A DNA stretch of 22,534 bases from a virus. Position 1 is the first letter of the stretch. Each line of letters starts with the position of its first letter. This document shows, in pieces, positions 6,232 to 17,344 of this stretch. Under the pieces are notes generated by a model. That model was given only the letters and a program-made list of their open reading frames with translations. It ran no database searches and had not been told where the DNA came from. The stretch covers positions 1-22,534 of IMG/VR virus record IMGVR_UViG_3300025890_000176; one strand, written 5' to 3'. Position numbers and translations under genes: made by a program.

Positions 6232-7439
6232 TGAAAGTAGAAATTTATAGTAAGTCAAATTGTCCGTTTTGTGACAAAGCAAAACACTGGTTTAAATCTC
6301 ATGGATATGAGTATACAGAACATCGTATGGATAACGAAGAAGAAAGACTTGCCTTCTATCAAAGAGTTCCTAATGCTCGTTCAGTACCACAAATCTTTAT
6401 TGATGATAAACTAATTGGTACTTACGATGACTTTATGAAAGTTTCAGAGTCATTCGTAAAGAAAAAGGGTGGTGGACTTATGGAGTTTTCTGAAACCTAT
6501 AAACCATTCCATTATCCATGGGCAGTAGAAATTACAACAAGACATGAGAAGGTTCACTGGATTGAAGATGAACTTGATTTGTCTGAAGATGTTGCTGATT
6601 GGAAATCTGGTAAGACTTCTGTTATTGAAAGAGAATACATTACAAACATCCTAAGACTATTCACACAGTCAGATGTAGCAGTAGGACAGAATTACTTTGA
6701 CCAATTTATACCTAAATTTAAGAATAATGAAGTACGCAATATGCTTGGTTCATTTGCATCTCGTGAAGGTATCCACCAACGTGCATATGCACTTCTTAAT
6801 GAGACACTTGGGTTATCTGATGCCGAGTATCATGCCTTCCTAGAATATCAAGAGATGGCAGACAAGATTGAGTTTATGATGGATAGTGACCCTAACACAG
6901 TTCGTGGATTGGGACTATCACTTGCAAAATCTGTTATGAATGAAGGTGTGGCACTATTTGCATCATTCGTGATGTTGTTGAACTTCCAGCGTTTCGGTAA
7001 AATGAAAGGTATGGGTAAAGTTGTTGAGTGGAGTATTCGTGACGAATCAATTCACGTTGAGGGTATTGCAAAACTATTCAAAGCATACTGTGGTGAACAT
7101 CCTCGTATTGTAGATGATGAATTCAAATCTGCAATTTATGAGATGGCAAGACAAGCAGTTAAACTTGAAGATAAGTTTGTTGACCTTGCATATAAGTTAG
7201 GAGAAATTGAAGGACTAGAACAGTCTGAAGTAAAGACATATATAAGGTATATCACTGATAGAAGATTGCTTCAATTGGGGATGAAACCTAACTTCAAAGT
7301 GAAGGACAATCCCTTACCTTGGTTAGAGTGGGTACTTAACGGTGCAGACCACACTAACTTCTTTGAGAACAGAGTAACCGAATATGAGGTTGCTGGACTT
7401 ACAGGTAAGTGGGACGATGTTTACGAACAAGTAGCTTAA
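6231..7439 (+). CDS. nrdB: glutaredoxin-NrdB fusion, RNR radical subunit
   Basis: 402 residues. Residues 1-75 are a glutaredoxin: active site CPFC (11-14) and the cis-proline motif SVP (51-53). Residues from about 85 on are a class I ribonucleotide reductase beta subunit. By alignment from memory with E. coli NrdB, the di-iron ligands are Asp148, Glu179, His182, Glu238, Glu272 and His275, and the radical tyrosine is Tyr186 (motifs REGIHQRAY, NEGVALF and RDESIH). All are present, so a standard tyrosyl-radical di-iron enzyme is predicted. The fused domain would reduce the NrdA C-terminal Cys pair directly. The join is a short lysine/glycine linker (about 77-82) with no frame interruption, so this is a true fusion. 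Confidence 0.95.
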   Translation: MKVEIYSKSNCPFCDKAKHWFKSHGYEYTEHRMDNEEERLAFYQRVPNARSVPQIFIDDKLIGTYDDFMKVSESFVKKKGGGLMEFSETYKPFHYPWAVEITTRHEKVHWIEDELDLSEDVADWKSGKTSVIEREYITNILRLFTQSDVAVGQNYFDQFIPKFKNNEVRNMLGSFASREGIHQRAYALLNETLGLSDAEYHAFLEYQEMADKIEFMMDSDPNTVRGLGLSLAKSVMNEGVALFASFVMLLNFQRFGKMKGMGKVVEWSIRDESIHVEGIAKLFKAYCGEHPRIVDDEFKSAIYEMARQAVKLEDKFVDLAYKLGEIEGLEQSEVKTYIRYITDRRLLQLGMKPNFKVKDNPLPWLEWVLNGADHTNFFENRVTEYEVAGLTGKWDDVYEQVA

Positions 7440-8349: not shown

Positions 8350-8559
8350 ATGTCTATAGGATTAGTGTTGAGACACACTTATCAAGAAACTTGTGAAATC
8401 TGTGAAAAGATTGCACATTTAGTAAGCAAGGTATGGGACGGTATTGTTGCACATGCTGAGATTGTTGGAACTGCGAGAGCAGCTGCAGAACTTTCTCGTC
8501 AAGGATACCATAAGGAAGCGAAAGCACTTATGTTAGAATTGGATAGGATGAAAAGATAA
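8350..8559 (+). CDS. small alpha-helical protein next to DUF1127
   Basis: 69 residues with a strong AAGGAG upstream. The C-terminal half (TARAAAELSRQGYHKEAKALMLEL, residues 41-64 in two helices) resembles short helical proteins of alphaproteobacteria that accompany DUF1127-type proteins; this is from memory and unverified. The N-terminal half contains a CEIC pair (15-18). It overlaps the DUF1127 gene by one base, so the two are translationally coupled. It was probably acquired from a host. Confidence 0.72.
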   Translation: MSIGLVLRHTYQETCEICEKIAHLVSKVWDGIVAHAEIVGTARAAAELSRQGYHKEAKALMLELDRMKR

Positions 8560-8777
8560 TGACTGTACTTACACAAACTTACTGTGCGTTTTGTGATGTT
8601 ATTTCTGATTTGTATAAAAACTTCAGAAAATCTATCACACCAAAAATGGACAAAAAAATCTACAGAGAACTTGCCAGTCTTACTGACAGGGAACTAAACG
8701 ACATGGGTATTTGTCGTGGTGATATTACAAATATTGCTATGGGTAAACATGTACCTAGAGATGGTTGGACAAAATAA
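8559..8777 (+). CDS. DUF1127 small protein
   Basis: 72 residues. The core YRELASLTDRELNDMGICRGDI (about 35-56, shown here in its motif order: RELAxLxDRELxDxGxxRxDI) is a clear DUF1127 signature. DUF1127 proteins are short, basic and most abundant in alphaproteobacteria, where members have been linked to RNA turnover and to phosphate and carbon metabolism. In phage DNA this is unusual and supports an alphaproteobacterial host. An extra N-terminal segment with two Cys (9 and 12) precedes the domain. The gene ends the small-protein group and is followed by a promoter/hairpin and a Na/Pi cotransporter homologue. Confidence 0.85.
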   Translation: MTVLTQTYCAFCDVISDLYKNFRKSITPKMDKKIYRELASLTDRELNDMGICRGDITNIAMGKHVPRDGWTK

Positions 8778-9437: not shown

Positions 9438-9469
9438 ATATGTATAGTCAATGAGAGAGGAACTTAATT

Positions 9470-9993: not shown

Positions 9994-10027
9994 ATACTTA
10001 TAAACAATGAGAAAGGACGTTAAAAAT

Positions 10028-10850: not shown

Positions 10851-10882
10851 ATGCTAGTAATGATGAGAAAAGAGGTGAGATT

Positions 10883-12623: not shown

Positions 12624-12701
12624 CTGCCCGTAGCTCAGTTGGATTAGAGCAACGGTCTTCTAAACCGTAGGTCGCAAGTTCGAGTCTTGCCGGGCAGGCC
12701 A
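12624..12701 (+). tRNA. tRNA-Arg (anticodon TCT)
   Basis: Full cloverleaf: acceptor CTGCCCG (12624-12630) with CGGGCAG (12691-12697); D stem GCTC/GAGC; anticodon stem ACGGT/ACCGT with loop CTTCTAA, giving anticodon TCT; T stem GCAAG/CTTGC with loop TTCGAGT. The discriminator G and the CCA end are encoded (12698-12701). It reads AGA/AGG, and AGA is common in this phage's genes. It lies in the 106-base gap between the glycine-zipper gene and the bS21 gene, so it is likely cut out of an mRNA. Confidence 0.96.
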
Positions 12702-12715
12702 AATATGAGGATTTA

Positions 12716-12988
12716 ATGAGGTATAATAAATTTAATAAGTATAATAAGAAACGTAATTTTAAACAAGAAGAGCGTCCTGCTGGGATGACTGTGATTGTTC
12801 GTGATAATGATGTAAACAAAGCGTTAAGAGTTTTAAAGAAGAAACTCTTGCGTGATGGGTTCTTTCAAGAATTAAGAGATAGAACCTTTTATGAGTCCAA
12901 GGGAACTAAACGTAGAAAAGCAAAGGATGCTGCGACACGAAGATTCAAACGAAACTTGGAAAAACAAAAACTTGAACGTGGATATTAA
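12716..12988 (+). CDS. rpsU: phage-encoded ribosomal protein bS21
   Basis: 90 residues. Residues about 24-90 follow the bS21 pattern: a starting strand (MTVIVRDND), ALRVLKKKLLRDGFFQELRDR, then the conserved FYESKGTKRRKAKDAATRR (58-76) and a basic tail. bS21 binds the 30S platform next to the anti-SD end of 16S rRNA and assists initiation; phage copies are known from marine phages, including SAR11 phages. An unusual basic, Asn/Lys-rich extension (residues 1-23, MRYNKFNKYNKKRNF...) precedes the core. GAGG at 12707-12710 is the ribosome site. The gene directly follows tRNA-Arg, so two translation functions are adjacent. Confidence 0.92.
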   Translation: MRYNKFNKYNKKRNFKQEERPAGMTVIVRDNDVNKALRVLKKKLLRDGFFQELRDRTFYESKGTKRRKAKDAATRRFKRNLEKQKLERGY

Positions 12989-13967: not shown

Positions 13968-14828
13968 ATGATATTAGTTGATATGAATCAAGTTACCATT
14001 AGTAATCTAATGATGCAACTAGGTTCAAAGCGTGACAACGAACTGGATGAAAATCTAGTTCGACATATGGTATTAAACTCTATAAGAGGATACCGTAGTC
14101 GATTCCATGAAGCCTTTGGTGAAATGGTACTTTGTTACGATAGCAAAAAGTATTGGAGAAGGGATTACTTCCCCAACTACAAATCTAATCGAAAGAAGGA
14201 CAGAGCAAACTCTGGACTTGATTGGAACACCATCTTTGAAACTCTGAATAACATCAGAGATGAAATCAAAGAAATCTTTCCCTACAAAGTTTTAGAAGTA
14301 GAGGGTGCAGAAGCAGATGATGTTATTGCATCTATCGTACAGCATGTTGCTGAAACTCCTAGTGAGTTTGAGCATATCCTTATATTGTCTGGTGACAAAG
14401 ATTTCATTCAGTTGCAGAAACACAACTTTGTGAAACAATATTCTCCCACATTGAAAAAATTTGTGAAAGATATTGACCCCGACATATATATAAGGGAGCA
14501 TGTACTAAAAGGTGATAGAAGTGACGGTGTACCTAATTTTCTTTCGCCAGATAATACTTTCGTTGATGAGTTGAGACAGAAACCATTATCCAAGAAAAAG
14601 TTGGAGACATGGATTGACTTAGAACCATCTGACTATTGTTCAGATGAAATGATGAGAAATTATCAACGAAATAAAACCCTAATTGATTTAGAATGTATAC
14701 CTAGTGACTTGAAGGTAAAGATTCTGGAAGAATACCAGAATGCTGAACACGGTGACAGGTCGAAACTACTAAATTATTTTATTAACAAAAGATTGAAAAA
14801 TCTTATGAATGACATTGGAGACTTTTAA
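13968..14828 (+). CDS. rnh: T4-type RNase H, 5'-3' exonuclease (FEN1-like)
   Basis: 286 residues, near the 305 of T4 RNase H. Acidic active-site motifs of the FEN/PIN-like 5' nuclease fold are in order: Asp5 (LVDMN), Asp58 (LCYDSK), EGAEADD (112-118), SGDKDF (141-146) and GDRSDGVPN (182-190). The arch segment KYWRRDYFPNYKSNRK (61-75) matches the T4 enzyme. It removes RNA primers and adjacent DNA from lagging-strand fragments, working with the gp61 primase of this window. It has its own promoter and a weak ribosome site (GTGAG). Its end overlaps nothing; the next ATG is one base away. Confidence 0.93.
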   Translation: MILVDMNQVTISNLMMQLGSKRDNELDENLVRHMVLNSIRGYRSRFHEAFGEMVLCYDSKKYWRRDYFPNYKSNRKKDRANSGLDWNTIFETLNNIRDEIKEIFPYKVLEVEGAEADDVIASIVQHVAETPSEFEHILILSGDKDFIQLQKHNFVKQYSPTLKKFVKDIDPDIYIREHVLKGDRSDGVPNFLSPDNTFVDELRQKPLSKKKLETWIDLEPSDYCSDEMMRNYQRNKTLIDLECIPSDLKVKILEEYQNAEHGDRSKLLNYFINKRLKNLMNDIGDF

Positions 14829-14829
14829 T

Positions 14830-15282
14830 ATGGTTCAAGATACCTATACACCTCTACTTTCTGAGGTATTAAAGAAAGTACATAATGCAAAGACGAAGGC
14901 AAAGAAAGTTGAACTCTTGCAAAAATATGATTGTGACGCATTGCGTGTAATCATTAAATCATCATTCGACCCTAACATCGAATGGGTGATTCCAAAAGGT
15001 GAAGTTCCCTTTACAGCAAATGATGCTGAAGAAGGAACTGAACATACTGTACTACGAAGAGAGTACAAAAAACTTTATCGTTTTGTGAAAGGTGGTGATG
15101 ATGGATTAGTTGGTTTTAAACGTGAAAACATGTTCATTCAATTACTAGAAGGATTACATAAAAGTGAAGCTGACCTCGTTATCTCTGCAAAAGATAAAAA
15201 ACTACATCAAGCATTCAAAGGACTCTCTGAGAATGTCGTTAAAGAAGCGTTCCAATGGAACGACAGTTACAACAAGGAATAA
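14830..15282 (+). CDS. DUF6433-like conserved phage protein
   Basis: 150 residues from ATG 14830, one base after the RNase H stop (an in-frame TTG at 14809 lies in RNase H, but a GGAG at 14817-14820 favours 14830). Family motifs recalled from T4-like marine phages: PLLSEVLKKVHNAKTKAKKVELL, DALRVIIKSSFDPNIEWVIP, EGTEHTVLRREYKKLYRFVKGG and MFIQLLEGLHKSEADLVISAKDKKL (each seen in parts). Adjacent to RNase H in many such genomes, so a link to replication or recombination is plausible. Biochemical function unknown. Confidence 0.82.
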   Translation: MVQDTYTPLLSEVLKKVHNAKTKAKKVELLQKYDCDALRVIIKSSFDPNIEWVIPKGEVPFTANDAEEGTEHTVLRREYKKLYRFVKGGDDGLVGFKRENMFIQLLEGLHKSEADLVISAKDKKLHQAFKGLSENVVKEAFQWNDSYNKE

Positions 15283-15286
15283 AGAT

Positions 15287-15796
15287 ATGAAAGATAACTA
15301 TCAACATTGTTTGGAGATGATTCTCCATCACGAGGGTGGTTATGTCAACCATCCAAAAGACCCAGGCGGTGAAACTAATCTTGGCATTACCAAGAGAGTT
15401 TACGAAGATTTCGGTGGTACGAAAGACATGAAAGACTTAACTGTAGAGGATGCCGCACCCATCTACGAAAAAAATTATTGGAATCGTCTAAAGTGTGACG
15501 ATATTCCAGACGGGCTTGACCTCTGCGTATTCGATTTCGGAGTAAACGCTGGTACAGGACGAAGTGCAAAGTATTTGCAAACAATGATTGGGACAACTGC
15601 CGATGGTGGCATTGGCCCCAATACACTGAGGAAACTTGGTGAGTATATTGACGAACATGGTCTTGAAACAACTATCAAGAACTTTCAAGAAGCACGTCAA
15701 TCATACTATGAAAAATTAAAAACATTTGAAACATTCGGTAGGGGTTGGACTCGTAGAGTTACAGAAACTACAGAAGAAGCTCTAAAAATGTGTTGA
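15287..15796 (+). CDS. GH108-type endolysin (N-acetylmuramidase)
   Basis: 169 residues from ATG 15287; the longer frame back to 15164 would overlap the DUF6433 gene and is unlikely. The N-terminal GH108 signature is HHEGGYVNHPKDPGGETN (14-31) with catalytic Glu16, followed by LGITKRVYEDF. The middle shows YWNRLKCDDIPDGLDLCVFDFGVN (about 64-87 in sequence) and then a peptidoglycan-binding type-3 segment with DGGIGPNTLRKL and the terminal GRGWTRRV. It cleaves the glycan strand of the cell wall at lysis. It has no signal peptide, so a holin is needed. It is about 13 kb away from the spanin cluster. Its TGA overlaps the -35 box of the sRNA promoter. Confidence 0.92.
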   Translation: MKDNYQHCLEMILHHEGGYVNHPKDPGGETNLGITKRVYEDFGGTKDMKDLTVEDAAPIYEKNYWNRLKCDDIPDGLDLCVFDFGVNAGTGRSAKYLQTMIGTTADGGIGPNTLRKLGEYIDEHGLETTIKNFQEARQSYYEKLKTFETFGRGWTRRVTETTEEALKMC

Positions 15797-15821
15797 CTTA
15801 TGCGTACCTTTAAGGTATGAT
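15793..15821 (+). promoter_or_regulatory. promoter of the small RNA, with own inverted repeat
   Basis: TTGACT at 15793-15798 (overlapping the endolysin stop), 17 bases, TATGAT at 15816-15821. The expected transcription start is 15828-15829, exactly where the RNA hairpin begins. TACCTTTAAGGTA (15805-15817) is a 13-base inverted repeat overlapping the -10, different from the TGTT..AACA repeat of the neighbouring promoters. Confidence 0.8.
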
Positions 15822-15827
15822 ATAAAC

Positions 15828-15917
15828 AATGGATGGGAATTCACCTCTCTCTCGACTTTCTCTCTCAGAATTTCCATCCATTACCTCAAAAGCCCTTGTT
15901 TTTCAAGGGTTTTTTTT
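15828..15917 (+). ncRNA. candidate anti-Shine-Dalgarno small RNA, about 90 nt
   Basis: Bounded by a promoter (15793-15821) and an intrinsic terminator (15893-15917), with no reading frame of note. AATGGATGGGAATTC (15828-15842) pairs over 15 bases with GAATTTCCATCCATT (15868-15882; one G-U pair). The 25-base loop (15843-15867) has 21 pyrimidines and contains CCTCTCTC (15844-15851) and CTTTCTC (15856-15862). These are exact complements of the ribosome-binding leaders GAGAGAGG (9453-9460) and GAGAAAG (seen before the genes at 10028, 16334 and 17072). A further unpaired ACCTC follows at 15883-15887. Base pairing with these leaders, and perhaps with host SD sites, is the likely action. Expression and targets are inferred. 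Confidence 0.72.
15893..15917 (+). terminator. intrinsic terminator of the small RNA
   Basis: CCCTTG (15893-15898) and CAAGGG (15904-15909) with a five-T loop, then eight T (15910-15917); AAAA before the stem can extend it. The U-tail would also suit Hfq binding. Nearly identical in design and in the following GGC to the terminator at 9372-9397. Confidence 0.92.
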
Positions 15918-15940
15918 GGCCAAAATAATGAAGAAATGCC

Positions 15941-15969
15941 TTGACTTTTGTTCTAATAACATGTATACT
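15941..15969 (+). promoter_or_regulatory. early-type promoter with TGTT..AACA operator-like spacer
   Basis: TTGACT at 15941-15946, 17 bases, TATACT at 15964-15969. Inverted repeat TGTTCTAATAACA at 15949-15961 followed by TG before the -10. The leader holds AAGAAAGAAAGG instead of the usual AATGAGAAAGG. Confidence 0.92.
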
Positions 15970-16000
15970 ATAAGTATAATCAAGAAAGAAAGGAAATTAT

Positions 16001-16264
16001 ATGATTAAAAATTTGAATATACCAGAAACTTGTGGGTGGTTGGGAATGATTCTCATCCACGGAGCAACTGCTCCAACCTCAATTTCAGTTCTAATGGGAT
16101 GGTCAACTGACTTACCCCCATTGAATTTCATACTGTTAGTATGGTTAGGACTGTTCTTGTTCCTAGTAAGAGCAATATATGCTAAGGATACTTTGTACAT
16201 TGTATCTAATGCGATTGGGTTTTCACTAAACAGTCTTTTATTAAGTTTAATTGCATTTAATTAA
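16001..16264 (+). CDS. small three-TM membrane protein
   Basis: 87 residues behind its own promoter and an AAAGGAAAT site. Three hydrophobic segments are visible: about 11-33 (GWLGMILIHGATAPTSISVL), 40-58 (LNFILLVWLGLFLFLVRAI) and 64-86 (YIVSNAIGFSLNSLLLSLIAF). Length and three-helix topology match SemiSWEET/PQ-loop half-transporters, but no PQ motif is present, so this is only a size comparison. It is probably an inner-membrane protein made early in infection. Function unknown. Confidence 0.78.
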   Translation: MIKNLNIPETCGWLGMILIHGATAPTSISVLMGWSTDLPPLNFILLVWLGLFLFLVRAIYAKDTLYIVSNAIGFSLNSLLLSLIAFN

Positions 16265-16273
16265 AAAAATGCC

Positions 16274-16302
16274 TTGACTTTTGTTATGATAACATGTATA
16301 CT
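16274..16302 (+). promoter_or_regulatory. early-type promoter with perfect TGTT..AACA palindrome
   Basis: TTGACT at 16274-16279, 17 bases, TATACT at 16297-16302. TGTTATGATAACA (16282-16294) is a perfect inverted repeat around a central base, the best example of the family. The leader holds AATGAGAAAGG (16315-16325). Confidence 0.93.
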
Positions 16303-16333
16303 ATAGGTATAGTTAATGAGAAAGGAAAAAATT

Positions 16334-16579
16334 ATGAAGTTTGAAAAATGGTTAGATACTCTAGTCGAAGAAAAGAACCTAGATATAGAACATGTATTTG
16401 AATATAAAGGCCCTGTGTGGGGTATGAATATGATTCCTTTGGGTGCAGTAATTGAACAGATTAAAGCGTTCCACCCAAAAACTCAACAGATGACAAAAAA
16501 CAGATTAGTTGAGATTGATTTTAAAAACGGTGATGTAATGCACTTCTTTGGTTACATTGCTCAAAAGATGGCACAATAA
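16334..16579 (+). CDS. small orphan protein
   Basis: 81 residues from ATG 16334, 8 bases after AAAGGA; the in-frame ATG at 16316 is the leader ATG of this promoter family and is not favoured. The sequence begins with a helix (FEKWLDTLVEEKNLDIEHVF) and continues with a mixed segment (GPVWGMNMIPLGAVIEQIKAF) and a strand-rich end (NRLVEIDFKNGDVMHFFGYI). No family recognised. Overlaps the metallopeptidase start by one base, so the pair is coupled. Confidence 0.75.
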   Translation: MKFEKWLDTLVEEKNLDIEHVFEYKGPVWGMNMIPLGAVIEQIKAFHPKTQQMTKNRLVEIDFKNGDVMHFFGYIAQKMAQ

Positions 16580-17001
16580 TGAAAAATAGAAATGTTATAT
16601 CAGTTGTTGGTGGTGTTAAACATGAGAGACACATTGCAGAAAAATGTGTTGCTCACATGATTGACAAACTAATGCCTAGAATGAAAACCTTGGATATTGA
16701 GGTTGAGATAAAAAACATTCCAGGCTCTGCAATTGGTTATTGTGATATGCAAGATACCAATAGAGAATTCACTCTGGAAATTCAGAAGGGATTAACTCTA
16801 AAAGAATTAGTAACAACCGTGGTTCACGAGATGATACACGTTAAACAGTACGCAAGAAAAGAAATGGATGTCGAAGGTAAAACTTGGAAAAGATGTTTCG
16901 TTGTTGAGGGTACTGGTTACTACGACCTTCCTTGGGAAAAGGAAGCTTACCGTCTGCAAGACAAATATGCACAGTCAGTTTGGGATGCAGATATTTTGTA
17001 A
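16579..17001 (+). CDS. SprT-like zinc metallopeptidase
   Basis: 140 residues. The zinc-binding motif HEMIH at 83-87 sits in a helix (VTTVVHEMIHVKQY) and a candidate third ligand lies in the WEKEA segment (119-123), the arrangement of compact SprT-like gluzincins. Length fits the minimal protease domain. SprT/Spartan relatives cleave proteins crosslinked to DNA, but the phage members are uncharacterised, so a host-protein target or DNA-protein repair are both open. Start shares a base with the upstream stop; unit driven by the 16274 promoter. Confidence 0.85.
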   Translation: MKNRNVISVVGGVKHERHIAEKCVAHMIDKLMPRMKTLDIEVEIKNIPGSAIGYCDMQDTNREFTLEIQKGLTLKELVTTVVHEMIHVKQYARKEMDVEGKTWKRCFVVEGTGYYDLPWEKEAYRLQDKYAQSVWDADIL

Positions 17002-17039: not shown

Positions 17040-17071
17040 AGCTATGTTGATAATGAGAAAGAGGAAATATT

Positions 17072-17344
17072 ATGATTAGTAATGAAATGCAAAAAACCCT
17101 AATGGGTATGACAGTTGGTGAATTGACAGAACTTCAGAAGTTTTGTTCAGACCTCAAAGTGATGAAAAACAAAACTGGTTTAGAAGTTGGCCAGAGAGTT
17201 TATGTTGTTCAGAAAACAAAAAAGACTCCAGGCACTATCAGAAAGATTAACAAGACAAGAGCGATTGTTGATATGGTGACTAACCCTATCAGTGGTGCTG
17301 TGTCTGGTTACAATGTTCCATTTTCAATGTTGGAGGCTGCGTAA
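17072..17344 (+). CDS. small protein with possible KOW/SH3-like barrel
   Basis: 90 residues with GAGG eight or more bases upstream of ATG 17072. The first part is helical (GELTELQKFCSDLKVMKNK); from residue about 38 the pattern GQRVYVVQKTKKTPGTIRKINKTRAIVDM resembles a small beta barrel of KOW/SH3 type, seen in ribosome- or RNA polymerase-associated proteins. Positive charge in this part supports RNA contact. This is a fold guess, not a family match. Overlaps the next ATG by one base. Confidence 0.75.
   Translation: MISNEMQKTLMGMTVGELTELQKFCSDLKVMKNKTGLEVGQRVYVVQKTKKTPGTIRKINKTRAIVDMVTNPISGAVSGYNVPFSMLEAA

Follow-up and report, generated by a model that had tools for sequence, protein, structure and literature searches.

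A small RNA gene with a conserved CU-rich loop, predicted to pair with early-gene leaders, in phage Melnitz-like marine phages

Directly behind the endolysin gene of a marine phage, a promoter, a hairpin with a CU-rich loop and a terminator follow one another within a short interval. Does this locus encode an RNA, and if so, what might its loop pair with? The window analysed here is the whole of one IMG/VR record, taken at full length (22.5 kb; 22,534 nt), and over the 1.5 kb compared around the small RNA it is 96.9% identical to four isolates of the Methylophilales phage Melnitz. Melnitz is a T4-like myophage whose host is OM43 (Methylophilales), and the paper describing it, in which the control of the phage was proposed to be simplified, does not name a small RNA (PMC9004378). 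Since the window is ~97% identical to a phage of OM43, its host group is OM43/Methylophilales, rather than the Alphaproteobacteria implied by an earlier note on this DNA. The phage also encodes a bS21 ribosomal protein (12716-12988; PF01165, E 8e-15), whose gene adjoins that of a tRNA-Arg(UCU) (12624-12701). The features relevant to the small RNA are collected in Table 1.

Table 1. Features of the small RNA locus, its syntenic neighbours and the predicted target leaders in the window. Energies are for pairing with the loop.
Feature	Position	Strand	Remarks
DUF1127 protein gene	8559-8777		PF06568, E 3.6e-9; preceded by two small ORFs without a Pfam match
Early-gene leader with GAGAGAGG (9453-9460)	9443-9469	+	predicted target; -18.2 kcal/mol
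Early-gene leader with GAGAAAGGA (from 10009)	10000-10027	+	predicted target
Early-gene leader AUGAGAAAAGAGGU	10857-10882	+	predicted target; -15.2 kcal/mol
DUF6433 gene	14809-15282	+	left syntenic marker of the small RNA
GH108 endolysin gene	15254-15796	+	PF05838; directly upstream of the small RNA
Sigma70-type promoter TTGACT-17-TATGAT	15793-15821	+	-35 box shares bases with the GH108 endolysin stop codon
Dyad CGTACCT-tta-AGGTATG	15803-15819		between -35 and -10; candidate operator
Stem, 5' arm (15 bp)	15828-15842	+	base 15828 is the predicted +1; covariation
CU-rich loop (25 nt)	15843-15867	+	two CU tracts linked by GA; proposed pairing region
Stem, 3' arm	15868-15882	+	fold and covariation
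59-codon ORF	15829-16008	+	begins at +2 of the RNA; annotated in Melnitz as hypothetical protein QZI94798.1; judged spurious
Intrinsic terminator	15888-15923	+	stem of 11 bp (15888-15914), then T-run
Leader of the next early gene, AAGAAAGAAAGG	15976-16000	+	weak predicted target; -8.7 kcal/mol
Early-gene leader AUGAGAAAGG	16309-16333	+	predicted target; -10.0 kcal/mol
SprT-like gene	16579-17001	+	right syntenic marker; Pfam match below cut-off
Early-gene leader AUGAGAAAGAGGA	17046-17071	+	predicted target; -13.4 kcal/mol

The element itself is real. The earlier note had described a promoter with a 17-nt spacer whose predicted start is the first base of a 15-bp hairpin, a 25-nt loop that is 84% pyrimidine, and a strong terminator, and all of these are present. 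The loop reads ACCUCUCUCUCGACUUUCUCUCUCA, with pyrimidines at 21 of 25 positions, and is laid out as ACCUCUCUCUC-GA-CUUUCUCUCUCA; a linker of 5 nt joins the hairpin to the terminator. The folded 90-mer reaches -32.1 kcal/mol (z = -6.15), and 0 of 200 shuffles were equally stable. With a promoter and a 3' end signal of its own, the locus has the make-up expected of an autonomous non-coding gene, whose product would be about 85-95 nt long.

The interval had also been described as lacking an ORF, which is incorrect, because a 59-codon frame overlaps the RNA and is annotated in Melnitz (MZ577097.1, 38547-38726). Could the region encode a small protein instead? Besides the annotation, an ATG is found at the equivalent place in many relatives. 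However, it is missing from 8 of 45 distinct hairpins, the frame ranges from 5 to 67 codons across relatives, and changes of 2 nt in the CT repeats shift it between one relative and another. The ORF has no Pfam match, and base changes in the stem are compensatory. Since neither its start, nor its length, nor its frame is conserved, we judged the ORF to be spurious and rejected the coding reading, which is hardly credible. The Melnitz entry for it, which lies over the small RNA, is thus probably spurious, and one such protein could be removed from Melnitz-like annotations.

The same arrangement of promoter, hairpin and CU loop lies directly behind the GH108 gene in 53 of 80 GH108 endolysin loci. 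Because stem sequences differ too much for RNAalifold on a raw MAFFT alignment, we adopted a covariance model of the hairpin; scanning for a pattern of the stem ends gave mainly inverted repeats unrelated to it. The model finds the hairpin in one syntenic place, between the DUF6433 and SprT-like genes, and the RNA stays there in several lineages in which the upstream endolysin has been swapped for other genes. When SprT-like loci were searched outward from that gene, the model detected the RNA in 47 of 63. Of the 16 loci left over, 11 show by eye a CU-loop hairpin that has diverged strongly, one of them doubtful (L296, with no visible promoter or T-run), and 5 of the 63 contigs end too near SprT to judge. 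The RNA is present in practically all related IMG/VR contigs that extend far enough to cover the locus, as 45 distinct hairpins plus very divergent ones.

Across 33 distinct hairpins, 93.9% of stem positions form standard pairs, and double-sided changes occur in 13 of the 15 pairs (88 cells), counted on an alignment that was fitted to the covariance model and thus leans towards structure. The covariation score for these hairpins is 0.610, compared with 0.214 after shuffling and at most 0.12 with slid partners. In most members, AA or GA links the two (CU)n tracts of the loop, and the number of CT repeats varies freely between close relatives. To judge from these alignments, the structure of the stem persists although its sequence changes, and the loop motif is retained. 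This is the reverse of the pattern that the earlier note had named as evidence against its reading, namely relatives that retain the stem and lose the loop. An undescribed small RNA gene in this phage and its relatives is thus well supported by comparative evidence.

We found no match to the covariance model in the Pelagibacter phages Mosig and HTVC008M, and no further copies of the RNA in Melnitz, Mosig or HTVC008M. Among phage isolates, the SprT-like gene occurs only in Melnitz, and two cyanophages with a DUF6433 gene carry different genes downstream of it. A scan of 84,980 genomes of bacteria and archaea gave a single match to the loop pattern, which lies in an archaeal MAG and is probably due to chance. 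A far larger structured version of the RNA is seen in L277 (~2770-2890) and its relatives, where an outer AAAGAC/GTCTTT stem encloses further elements around the CU-loop hairpin.

The promoter of the RNA has a conserved feature of its own, a dyad that recurs at the equivalent place in 36 distinct promoters, in most of them centred 18-18.5 nt from the first base of the -35 box. The arms average 5.6 bp, as against 3.3 bp after shuffling (the largest of 200 shuffled means was 3.8) and 3.5 bp in 137 other promoters of the same contigs; the dyad is specific to the promoter of the RNA. Its arms covary between relatives (TAGTAAC/GTTACTA, AATACC/GGTATT, GATAC/GTATC and others). The simplest reading is that the dyad is a candidate regulator-binding site, which suggests that a DNA-binding regulator may set the timing of the RNA. 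Other early promoters, for example those at 15941-15969 and 16274-16302, have a different spacer motif, TTGTTnTrATAACA, which is also found in relatives and is possibly the site of a phage-specific regulator.

Most members have a T-run terminator at the 3' end, but a tRNA-Gly(UCC), intact or degenerate, takes its place behind about 17 of the 45 distinct hairpins. This tRNA or its remnant usually starts 5-12 nt downstream of the hairpin, and RNase P would naturally be expected to form the 3' end of the RNA in these tRNA-linked members. Some tRNA-Gly-like stretches behind the hairpin are no longer called by ARAGORN (L040, ~6274-6350; also L044, L047, L048 and L049), and such degenerate stretches may have been retained solely to direct processing of the RNA's 3' end. 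The position of the hairpin, directly before tRNA-Gly(UCC) in these ~17 members and directly behind the endolysin gene in the window, would also fit a mere stabilising 5' leader or spacer in a tRNA/endolysin unit, with no function in trans. We regard this as improbable: most members terminate without any tRNA, the RNA remains where the upstream gene has been replaced, and retention of the loop sequence while the stem is rewritten is not expected of a spacer.

What, then, might the loop pair with? The complements that the earlier note had picked out in early-gene leaders are all in place. GAGAGAGG has its sole + strand copy in the window at 9453-9460; GAGAAAG, placed by the note at about 10010, 16318 and 17055, lies at 10009, 16318 and 17055, and has 16 copies in the window compared with 4.7 expected; and AGAGGT is present in the 10883 leader. 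Several coding-region sites in the window outscore its leaders for pairing with the loop. In two relatives (L281 and L069), the leader behind SprT, the counterpart of the leader at 17046-17071, is the best site of the whole contig.

Whether such pairing exceeds what a CU-rich composition would give depends on the class of leader. Over 208 annotated Melnitz leaders, whose consensus ribosome site is AGGAGA, the mean duplex energy of the loop (calculated, as throughout, with accessibility left out of account) was -8.94 compared with -9.57 for shuffled loops, and 174 of 200 shuffled loops were as good. Likewise, GAGAG is no commoner in the leaders of all long Melnitz ORFs than in those of Mosig and HTVC008M, which lack the RNA. 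Genes directly behind strong sigma70 promoters, however, have a separate kind of leader, typically UGAGAAARGAGRGG. When 19 loops, including very divergent ones, were paired with 115 of these early leaders, picked by a mechanical promoter rule that admits some false ones, only 0-13 of 150 composition-shuffled loops were as good. The same 19 loops favour early over other Melnitz leaders by 2.5-4.9 kcal/mol, a difference reached by 0-3 of 150 shuffled loops; as the sequences are related, these nominal counts overstate independence. When the leaders were shuffled instead, 0 of 200 were as good for each of 7 loops tested. With the 19 promoter-proximal Melnitz leaders alone, the result is marginal (58 of 1000 shuffles as good). 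Thus, pairing no better than that of shuffled CU loops, which the earlier note would have counted against its proposal, is what we find over all phage leaders, whereas the loop outperforms its shuffles on leaders behind sigma70 early promoters.

The CU repeat by itself does not account for this preference. A pure CU repeat fails the same test (136 of 150 shuffles as good against early leaders), and so the non-repeat letters of the loop matter. The pure repeat is gone from the loops of L068/L069 (CUUUUCUCAC) and L248, which show the best pairing with leaders, and near-continuous duplexes are formed with their own leaders by L248 (-22.5 kcal/mol) and L069 (-23.0 kcal/mol), with 4 and 2 of 3000 shuffles as good, respectively. 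In 6 of 44 contigs, an early leader provides the best + strand site, compared with a mean of 0.5 contigs for shuffled loops, and the median relative rank of the best leader is 0.012 compared with 0.11. Early leaders of phages without the RNA, a comparison group that is small or distant, belong to a different type and pair poorly, at -6.2 (Mosig/HTVC008M) and -4.8 (other contigs) versus -11.3 kcal/mol. A loop fits the leaders of its own contig no better than those found elsewhere (2311 of 5000 permutations were as good, on incomplete contigs that mostly hold few leaders), and there is no apparent lineage-by-lineage co-evolution of loop and target. The conserved, unpaired loop thus appears to be complementary to ribosome sites beyond composition, and specifically to those of early leaders.

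From these patterns, the most likely reading, to which we give a probability of about 0.5, is that the phage encodes a trans-acting small RNA whose loop base-pairs with the ribosome-binding regions of several early mRNAs and so reduces their translation. The loop would engage several early mRNAs at once, and pairing would either block binding of the 30S subunit or expose the mRNA to decay. The blunt 5' hairpin would stabilise the RNA, and early translation would drop after it has accumulated; we infer this direction and timing, as well as expression itself, from sequence.

Alternatively, the loop could be a general mimic of the anti-Shine-Dalgarno sequence in the 16S tail, acting mainly on host mRNAs (translation shut-off) or on ribosome assembly/bS21, in which case the early leaders would match only because they are strong ribosome sites. 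The loop starts with ACCUC, as the 16S tail does, and the phage carries its own bS21. Moreover, the 16S rRNA tail, GGAUCACCUCCUUUCU, favours the same leaders (its difference is -2.7, that of the loops about -2.5 to -4.9). Such a preference is unavoidable if these leaders are strong ribosome sites. Part of the pairing signal may therefore only say that loop and tail both resemble an anti-Shine-Dalgarno sequence. Yet the early-leader preference of most loops exceeds that of the tail, bulk leaders are paired no better than by shuffled loops, and most loops contain neither CCUCC nor UCCU, although the ribosome sites of Melnitz are mostly AGGAGA. For these reasons we consider a general mimic unlikely. 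It is also doubtful that the loop serves as a protein-binding decoy, that is, a G-poor UC run, held open by the stem, that could fill the primary site of Rho or of some other host protein with affinity for pyrimidines. Rho prefers YC dinucleotides, and nearly all members have an almost G-free loop with many of these, which is a matter of composition only; the number of CT repeats is also free to vary in close relatives, as a protein ligand would allow. However, a decoy would not lead one to expect loops that match early leaders in a sequence-specific way; the L068 and L248 loops pair best with leaders despite having no pure CU repeat; and the pure repeat pairs worse than its own shuffles. Among the papers listed in literature searches, none showed a phage-encoded Rho-decoy small RNA.

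An RNA that pairs with early leaders through a conserved loop would resemble several known RNAs in part. The alpha-r14 RNAs carry an unpaired, ultraconserved pyrimidine anti-Shine-Dalgarno motif in their loops, on stems of highly different sequence (PMC10746234). The phage RNA follows the same principle of a fixed loop motif on changing stems as the Cuckoo/alpha-r14 (NfeR1-type) RNAs of Alphaproteobacteria, but it is carried by a virulent OM43 phage and its predicted targets are phage early leaders. Cuckoo/alpha-r14 RNAs have three hairpins with CCUCCUCCC, whereas the phage RNA has one hairpin with two (CU)n tracts, and CCUCCUCCC occurs in none of the 45 phage hairpins. CcsR RNAs, also of Alphaproteobacteria, are encoded together with a DUF1127 protein (PMC10253847). 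At the CcsR/CIN1 locus the RNA is part of a DUF1127 unit; the phage RNA has its own promoter and a predicted start at 15828, with the DUF1127 gene 7 kb away. Thus, of what the earlier note proposed, the RNA gene and a loop complementary to leaders beyond composition stand, but the link to DUF1127 and alphaproteobacterial RNAs does not: the phage does encode a DUF1127 protein, as the note had said, but the gene and the RNA do not share an operon, and the host lies outside the Alphaproteobacteria.

An Rfam search at E up to 5 returned only tRNA and a sub-threshold suhB match, and no family of the cuckoo/alpha-r14 type. The suhB (MmgR) match (RF00519; 24.1 bits, gathering threshold 41; E 0.38) covers the loop, the 3' arm and the terminator and leaves out the 5' arm, so that the compensating stem is not part of it. 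Since CCUCCUCCC is absent, no such Rfam family is matched at threshold and the DUF1127 gene is distant, we judge the phage RNA to be a new family, which would work like the cuckoo/alpha-r14 RNAs but is not one of them. RepG of Helicobacter pylori reportedly pairs through its C/U-rich terminator loop with a G-repeat in one bacterial leader and tolerates changes in repeat length. Compared by description only, the likeness lies in a C/U-rich hairpin loop facing a purine-rich mRNA leader, and the difference is that the phage RNA would use a 5' hairpin and many leaders. T4 encodes its small stable RNAs C and D beside tRNA genes; these are likened here by description, not sequence, and come from a different phage group from Melnitz. 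In the sections of one review drawn on here (PMC12197685), most of the phage small RNAs, such as lambda OOP, VpdS, PreS, AsxR and 24B_1, act by base pairing on phage or host RNAs. The RNAs in those sections stem mainly from temperate phages or prophages, whereas the present one is from a virulent phage, and none is described there as having a loop complementary to the ribosome sites of an entire class of the phage's own early genes.

A broader proposal is possible but tentative, and we lean somewhat against it: in T4-like phages of streamlined marine bacteria, the early regulon may be controlled post-transcriptionally by one hairpin RNA antisense to a shared leader motif, with a covarying operator in its promoter and a 3' end made by a terminator or by tRNA processing. 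Temporal control in T4-like phages has been described mainly at the level of transcription. If the proposal is true, a regulon-wide early switch at the RNA level would be open to study in a cultured, testable marine phage-host system. The covariance model would also let annotators mark an RNA family that is missing from Rfam.

The leaders have features of their own. The early gene at 17072-17344 has a sub-threshold match to Phage_ProQ_C_like (E 0.0046), and because the leader behind SprT ranks top in two relatives, an RNA-chaperone-like target is conceivable. In many early leaders, an upstream AUGA lies just before the GA-rich stretch (AUGAGAAAG). The AUGA at 16316 begins a reading frame that continues into the annotated gene, and the annotation of its start codon may therefore be off.
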